DNA of 64,000 nucleotides from Chromohalobacter moromii. Its GTDB lineage: Bacteria > Pseudomonadota > Gammaproteobacteria > Pseudomonadales > Halomonadaceae. Below, in pieces: positions 14,298 through 25,565 of this stretch. The notes below the pieces were generated by a model. That model saw only the letters and a program-made list of their open reading frames with translations. It was not told the origin of the DNA and searched no databases. The stretch lies in assembly GCF_023091865.1 (NCBI RefSeq), contig NZ_JAHXDI010000003.1, positions 372,001 to 436,000 on the forward strand, in the 5' to 3' direction. How positions within the stretch are numbered: the first letter of the stretch is position 1; each line of letters opens with the position of its first letter. A program made the position numbers and the translations under genes.

Positions 14298-14335
14298 ATG
14301 GCAAAGGGCGGCCCTCAGCGGTCGTCCTCTAGGCT

Positions 14336-14468
14336 TTGTACGAAAACTGCCTGTGCTCGGCCATACGGCGTTAAAAATCAGCTCAAAGTACTCATTTACA
14401 CCCCGTAAACTCCGCCTTTTCGCTGATTTTTGCCTTGTCTGGCCATCGCTCGCCGACTTTTCGTGCAT
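14336..14468. repeat. Dispersed 133-bp element with inverted ends, copy 1
   Basis: This segment matches 25342-25473; I count 115 identical positions out of 133 aligned. The ends are inverted repeats, TTGTACGAAAA at the left and TTTTCGTGCAT at the right (two changes from the exact complement). A small stem TTTAC/GTAAA lies in the middle. The minus strand is open through it and reads SLRGVNEYFELIFNAV. There is no transposase. It looks like a MITE- or REP-type non-autonomous element sitting between glmU and the DeoR-family gene. Confidence 0.8.
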
Positions 14469-14589
14469 AGCCTAACGATCTCCTTTTACTATCTCTTGGG
14501 TAATGAGATTTCCCCTCTGCCGTGCGCTATTTTTCTTCCACATGCCGGGCGGTGCTTGACCGAAGATAACGAATCGCGTTTTATAAGCG

Positions 14590-24475: not shown

Positions 24476-25339
24476 ATGAGCAGTGCCCTGTTCGACGAGA
24501 TGAGACGCCGCATGGAGCACTTTCGGCGCTCTGAGCAGAAGGTGGCGCGCTTCGTGTTGCGTCATCCCGAGGACGTCATCCACATGCGCATCGTCGATCT
24601 AGCCACCGAAGCCAAGGTTAGCGAACCCACCGTGGTGCGTTTCTGCCGTGCGTTAGGGTGTAACGGTTTCCAGGACTTCAAGCTCAAGCTGGCGCAGATG
24701 CTCGCTACGGGTAGTCAGTTCGCGCAGTTCTCGATGAACGATAGTGACAGCGTCGCCGAATTTGCCCACAACATTTTCGACTCCACCGTGGGCACGTTGC
24801 TGTCGGTGCGCGATCGGCTCGATCACGCCGCACTGGGCAAGGCGGTCAACGCCCTGGCCATGGCCAATCGCGTGGAGTTCTACGGTTTCGGCGCCTCGGG
24901 CGCGGTGGCGTTCGATGCCCAGCACAAGTTCTTCCGCCTGCAGATATCCACTGCGGCTTATTCCGACCCGCACATGCAGAACATGTCGGCGGTAACGCTG
25001 ACGCCTCGCGACGTGGTAGTCGCCATCTCCCAGACCGGACGCACCCGGGCGCTGGTGGCCAGCGTGCGTCTGGCCCGCGAGACCGGGGCCACGGTGATCG
25101 GGCTATGTCCTAGCGATTCGCCGCTGGCAAGCGAAGTCACTCTGCCGCTTTATATCGATGTGCACGAGGACACCGAAATCTACACCCCGATGAGCTCGCG
25201 CGTGGCGCATCTGGTGATCGTCGACGTACTCGCCGTGGGCGTGGCCAAGACACGTGGGCCCAAGCTCGCCGAGCAACTTCAATCGGTGAAGAAAAGCCTG
25301 GTTCCGTTGCGTTATCCCGACGCCGACGAAGACCCCTAG
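24476..25339 (+). CDS. hexR: RpiR-family regulator of central carbon metabolism, HexR-like
   Basis: A 287-residue regulator with an N-terminal RpiR helix-turn-helix (about residues 36-60, VSEPTVVRFCRALG) and a C-terminal SIS domain that binds phosphosugars (ISQTGRTRALVASVRLA). It aligns along its whole length with what I recall of E. coli HexR, including the ending around EDTEIYTPMSSRVAHL. HexR responds to 2-keto-3-deoxy-6-phosphogluconate and controls Entner-Doudoroff and related genes. None of those targets lies beside it, so the specific role is inferred from similarity only. The repeat element copy 2 starts right after its stop codon. Confidence 0.85.
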   Translation: MSSALFDEMRRRMEHFRRSEQKVARFVLRHPEDVIHMRIVDLATEAKVSEPTVVRFCRALGCNGFQDFKLKLAQMLATGSQFAQFSMNDSDSVAEFAHNIFDSTVGTLLSVRDRLDHAALGKAVNALAMANRVEFYGFGASGAVAFDAQHKFFRLQISTAAYSDPHMQNMSAVTLTPRDVVVAISQTGRTRALVASVRLARETGATVIGLCPSDSPLASEVTLPLYIDVHEDTEIYTPMSSRVAHLVIVDVLAVGVAKTRGPKLAEQLQSVKKSLVPLRYPDADEDP

Positions 25340-25341
25340 GC

Positions 25342-25473
25342 TTGTACGAAAACTGGCTGCGCTCGCCAATACAGCGTTAAAAATCGCCTCAAAATGCTCA
25401 TTTACAACTCGTAAACTCCGCTTTTTCGTTGATTTTGCCTTGTCTAGCCTTCGCTCGCCGACTTTTCGTACAA
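25342..25473. repeat. Dispersed 132-bp element with inverted ends, copy 2
   Basis: This is the better preserved copy of the element also found at 14336-14468. The ends are exact 11-bp inverted repeats, TTGTACGAAAA (25342-25352) and TTTTCGTACAA (25463-25473). A central stem TTTAC/GTAAA lies at 25401-25415. The minus strand is open and reads SLRVVNEHFEAIFNAV, close to the peptide in copy 1. It begins three bases after the hexR stop codon and lies before uvrD. Confidence 0.82.
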
Positions 25474-25565
25474 CCCTTAGCCGGCTGGCGGATCGCGAGC
25501 GAACGAAGCCGAGACCGCTTGTGCTAAGCTGTGCGCTCATTTCGCAATGCCAAGATACGTGATCC

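Follow-up and report, generated by a model that had tools for sequence, protein, structure and literature searches.

Two copies of a dispersed repeat with inverted ends lie 11 kb apart in the window (the whole 64,000-nucleotide stretch of DNA analysed), and the question they raise is whether they represent a mobile element, and of which kind, or a short gene on the minus strand, which is open in both. As first delimited by comparison within the window, copy 1 occupied 14336–14468 and copy 2 25342–25473, with 86% identity in a 95-nt segment and 93% in a 40-nt segment. The initial annotation, which had described a two-copy repeat in intergenic DNA, was borne out with a slightly larger element (141 and 139 bp): the true limits of copy 1 were 14332–14472 with TA at either side, and the extended copies were identical in 123 of 147 aligned columns. 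Both copies are intergenic save for the left TA of copy 2, which lies within the TAG that ends the upstream gene (ORF 24476–25339), the stop being restored by the element's first G. Copy 1 is a near-complete imperfect palindrome of 141 bp whose single strand is predicted to fold along almost its full length (−53.8 kcal/mol vs −29.4 kcal/mol in shuffles; z = −7.2, reached by 0 of 200 shuffles). A covariance model gave only two matches in the window, with E = 4e-41 for copy 1 and 1e-35 for copy 2; because both copies had contributed to the alignment on which the model was trained, the E-values are not independent, and the informative part of the scan is that no third copy was found in the window. 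The features are as follows.

14330–14331, no strand: left TA of the target duplication, copy 1 (empty site in L138, CTC-TA-ACG)
14332–14472, plus strand: whole element, copy 1, 141 bp imperfect palindrome (fold, empty site, covariance model)
14332–14346, plus strand: left terminal inverted repeat GGCTTTGTACGAAAA (same sequence as at the left end of the L314 IS5-family IS)
14391–14414, plus strand: conserved apical core CTCATTTAC-ACCCC-GTAAACTCCG, copy 1 (core pattern searches, alignment)
14458–14472, minus strand: right terminal inverted repeat, TTTTCGTGCATAGCC on the plus strand (end comparison with the L314 IS)
14473–14474, no strand: right TA of the target duplication, copy 1 (empty-site alignment)
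25337–25338, no strand: left TA, copy 2, in the TAG stop of ORF 24476–25339 (empty-site alignment)
25339–25477, plus strand: whole element, copy 2, 139 bp (L132, L133 and L135 have the empty site; covariance model)
25397–25420, plus strand: conserved apical core, copy 2 (core pattern searches)
25478–25479, no strand: right TA, copy 2 (empty-site alignment)

For identification of a mobilizing partner, the element ends were sought outside hairpins. A full-length element with the same ends, which the initial annotation had proposed looking for, was found in a sister species (L314 in G009): an intact-looking IS of about 914 bp, TA|GGCTTTGTACGAAAAGTAG...CTGACTTTTCGTACAAAACC|TA, whose ends are matched by GGCTTTGTACGAAAA/TTTTCGTGCATAGCC of the element. 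Its reading frames correspond to DUF4096 and DDE_Tnp_1, and both match NCBIfam NF033580 (IS5 family) above the cut-off; a frameshift is needed to join them, an arrangement common in the IS5 family. IS copies related to L314, with variant ends, were present in G005, G006, G009 and G013. Hairpins of a second class, frequent in Pseudomonas, carry the ends CAGGCYGTTGAAAAA, which are those of the L378 IS with a different IS5-family transposase (NF033581); given both matches, two hairpin end types go with two IS5 subgroups. A third class has the ends GAGGGTGTTTACAAAA. In the loci read, a non-exhaustive set, no partner IS was found for these type-3 ends or for the ends of the Prevotellaceae/Tannerella copies.

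The initial annotation would have dropped the repeat had no further copies turned up in the genome or its relatives. Such copies were present: the own genome (G000, 3.47 Mb) contained 8 exact cores and up to 12 partial BLAST matches, element matches were obtained in 23 of the 38 genomes searched (own genome counted), and copies 99% identical to copy 1 stood at another locus in G004 and G006. For detection of empty sites, the flanks of ten filled loci were joined and searched across the genus, and both flanks lay side by side, as in an empty site, in many of its genomes. Target-site duplications, likewise suggested as a check, were found for both window copies as TA with matching empty sites, which read CTC-TA-ACG in L138 for copy 1 and CCCCTAGCC in L132, L133 and L135 for copy 2. 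In all, the window copies included, TA duplication with empty sites was seen at four type-1/2 loci (L001, L002, L003 and L076); at L006, which belongs to the third end class, the duplication was CA or ambiguous. Among 69 type-1/2 copies, TA stood outside the left end in 62, outside the right end in 54 and on both sides in 48. Some relatives retained short end-to-end remnants (L316, L320, L321, L331), as would be expected to be left by hairpin deletion. Palindromes of about 25–50 bp made from the element's two ends, with no core, were also observed (L012 at G000:C4:417781, L316 at G000:C1:1182969, L402 and L408); these very short end-only forms are probably deletion remnants. Judged from its sequence, the repeat is real and mobile, because TA duplication with empty sites, IS5-family terminal repeats and near-identical copies at different loci all point to transposition. 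No close copy of the L314-type IS was found in the own genome at E 1e-20, and it is therefore past mobility that is meant.

The initial annotation had left the choice between a MITE and a REP-type repeat. The MITE part stands, on the TA duplication, the empty sites and the IS5 ends; the REP part does not, as the element has 141 bp and no GTAG or CGTC tag at its foot. REPs are extragenic palindromes of 20–40 bp that occur in many copies and carry GTAG or CGTC tags (PMC3733652). A REP-type palindrome of a RAYT (Y1 transposase) system would account for a dispersed, intergenic, many-copy palindrome; with that length, no tag, TA duplication and IS5 ends against it, this reading is very improbable. 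It was rejected as a candidate on the ends themselves, GGC...GCC next to TA, which belong to a DDE-type IS. No transposase gene is contained in the 141 bp, and the element's frames gave no Pfam match. The element is thus best filed as an IS5-associated MITE, agreeing with one in every sequence criterion tested. With good confidence, it is read as a non-autonomous MITE that entered at TA through an IS5-family transposase acting in trans, and its interior as a conserved hairpin between differing IS5-type ends.

The interior is laid out as GTT, about 21 nt, CTCATTTAC N4/5 GTAAACTCCG, about 19 nt, and GCCT. The core pattern CTCATTTAC-N-GTAAACTC was found in 50 of 97 relatives, with 0 matches for the reversed control. 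A scan of named genomes returned at least 119 stretches with the core, many of the genomes being metagenome bins in which single matches may be binning errors or chance; among the matches listed were Pseudomonas, Halomonas, Vibrio, Shewanella, Bacteroidales, Prevotellaceae, Amoebophilus, Mariprofundales and a Bdellovibrio bin, so that the core extends far beyond the genus. The hairpin recurs under quite different ends in Pseudomonadota, Bacteroidota and other lineages. In even draws, the exact core was present in 28 of 398 Pseudomonadota genomes and, in the phylum to which a Prevotellaceae bin belongs, in 1 of 395 genomes, namely that bin itself (control 0 in each draw). The core is widespread, yet its occurrence is very patchy. 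Plasmids with the element came from Pseudomonas and, in one case, Halomonas; phages gave no match to it. The highest count in one genome, 180 exact cores, is an extreme expansion in G222 (2.0 Mb, also of the Pseudomonadota), the loop sequences of which resemble those of the Mariprofundales bin. Among 92 diverse copies, GTT[AG] lay 21–22 nt upstream of the core in 88 and GCCT 19–20 nt downstream in 87, figures that understate variation in spacing since the copies had been preselected for both motifs within 9-position windows.

Pairing was analysed in an alignment of 58 gammaproteobacterial copies, where two-sided changes occurred at 30 pairs, with 304 two-sided compensatory cells vs 100 ± 9 in shuffles. 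Pairing held in 86% of cells, compared with 31–50% when partners were slid. Five invariant apical pairs had belonged to the search pattern and are no proof of conservation, and outer-arm columns align poorly between end classes. A 16-bp stem-loop module, CTSG-nnYG-CSAG-YCCRRTC, was present in 51 distinct copies in relatives (examples are L045, L105, L112–L114, L199 and L327, among others), all at one of two hairpin positions flanking the apical stem (28 on its left side, 23 on its right), and at no other position among the loci read. Its 4-bp stem covaries (CTCG/CGAG, CTGG/CCAG), and longer stem-loops lie near the same two positions in Pseudomonas copies.

These results bear on a simpler account, in which the repeat is an ordinary MITE, an internally deleted IS5 element with a core of neutral filler, and the copies are alike through recent descent only. 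The ends matching an IS5-family IS and the TA duplication are what this account predicts, but the IS has no counterpart of the interior, the core is retained at fixed spacing across phyla under completely different ends, and the two-sided compensatory changes lie far above shuffles. The cross-phylum core in particular leaves it strained, and it is considered improbable. On the sequences compared, the interior is not leftover IS DNA.

That the minus strand is open in both copies was confirmed; that the peptides are similar was confirmed for their middle and not elsewhere, the frame of copy 2 being shifted by a 1-bp deletion in the right arm. Synonymous changes, whose dominance in this frame the initial annotation had proposed to check, were outnumbered in 41 similar copies by nonsynonymous ones (105 vs 429), and substitutions were spread evenly over the codon positions (260/230/264). 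The frame is also disrupted by the 16-bp inserts and by a loop length that varies between 4, 5 and 6 nt, and the peptide had no Pfam match. A short protein or peptide gene on this strand could draw on the frame noted earlier, which is uninterrupted in copy 1 and in 40 of 94 copies, and on the similar peptide middle in copy 2; against the even substitutions, the 429:105 ratio, the broken frames and the missing family match, the chance of such a gene is negligible. A protein-coding palindromic repeat was ruled out by the absent codon-position bias and the frame breaks. The element probably lies behind some of the short proteins that are predicted spuriously.

The paired stems are compatible with either RNA or single-stranded DNA. 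A structured RNA with a regulatory or processing function that is spread by transposition and acts as a transcript downstream of genes would explain the compensatory stems, the conserved unpaired motifs, the stem-loop inserts at two fixed points and the one copy kept at 98–100% in four species. Rfam 15, however, gave no family match at or close to the gathering score in the window, one unrelated chance match (E 1.9) lying beside the element, and no terminator or promoter signal was found. Raw counts of G-U against A-C mismatches were asymmetric (60:136), mainly in the fixed-motif zone; in the variable stems the asymmetry faded once redundant copies had been removed, and neither strand showed a clear preference for G-U over A-C. 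Orientation relative to genes was 72:28 by a crude ORF test, a bias that disappeared under a stricter one. With neither a strand preference in the mismatches nor an orientation bias in the stricter test, an RNA strand is not favoured, and the RNA account is judged unlikely, if less so than an ordinary MITE. The copy mentioned has a GC-rich stem and lies between aldehyde dehydrogenase and aminotransferase genes (L131 at G000:C2:376310; orthologues L092, L101 and L124); in the same place in four species its identity was 98–100% over the core vs 0.86–0.98 in flanking coding DNA, possibly a local domestication. A related hairpin was observed in Vibrio harveyi (L193) directly after a putative ilvC (ketol-acid reductoisomerase), named from the translated C-terminus only; the sequence in V. 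mexicanus (L184) is near-identical, which indicates a fixed position and not a dispersed copy.

For the non-autonomous MITE preferred here, an IS5-family transposase would recognise the terminal inverted repeats and move the element in trans. The leading guess for the role of the core is that the folded strand aids the element itself, for example by a single-stranded DNA fold during replication that would unite the ends. Palindromic arms could copy new ends onto each other, by which one core might switch its transposase partner. A bolder extension is a trans-phylum selfish hairpin, with a folded-strand core read by a widely conserved bacterial factor, which gains new ends and parasitises successive IS5-family transposases; it is offered tentatively, as the less probable side of the question. 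If the ends are indeed replaceable, one element can parasitise several transposases, and its patchy but wide spread would be explained. The compensatory variants form a natural mutant set for finding the reader of the hairpin. By sequence or by topic, no published description of the hairpin family was found in the open literature (subscription papers and ISfinder lying outside this scope).

Among known systems, the ERIC sequences of enterobacteria are imperfect palindromes of similar length dispersed in intergenic DNA, for which, to our knowledge, a mobilizing transposase is not established; they are not known to share the element's sequence, and differ from it in the IS5 ends that the element has. 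Integron attC sites have stems that vary if pairing is kept, conserved unpaired bases and variable extra stem-loops. The element shares freely varying paired stems, conserved unpaired bases and extra stem-loops with them by analogy only, having no integrase or cassettes and possessing TA duplication and IS5 ends. REP/RAYT systems are similar as many-copy extragenic palindromes and differ from the element in its IS5-type ends and TA duplication. IS5-family ISs (the NCBIfam NF033580 and NF033581 groups) have identical 15-bp ends and TA flanks, but measure about 0.9–1.3 kb, contain a transposase and have no hairpin core inside. Closest are the IS-derived MITEs of prokaryotes, which are short and intergenic, lack a transposase, share terminal repeats with an IS, duplicate their target and would yield a stem-loop when transcribed (PMC10969869); the element is like them in each of these respects. 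It is unusual in that it inverts their rule: ordinary MITEs share and keep their ends while the core drifts, whereas here the core is conserved across phyla, the stems are compensatory and the ends vary. MITEs are usually defined by their ends; in this element it is the core that is inherited as a unit, under ends that seem exchangeable.
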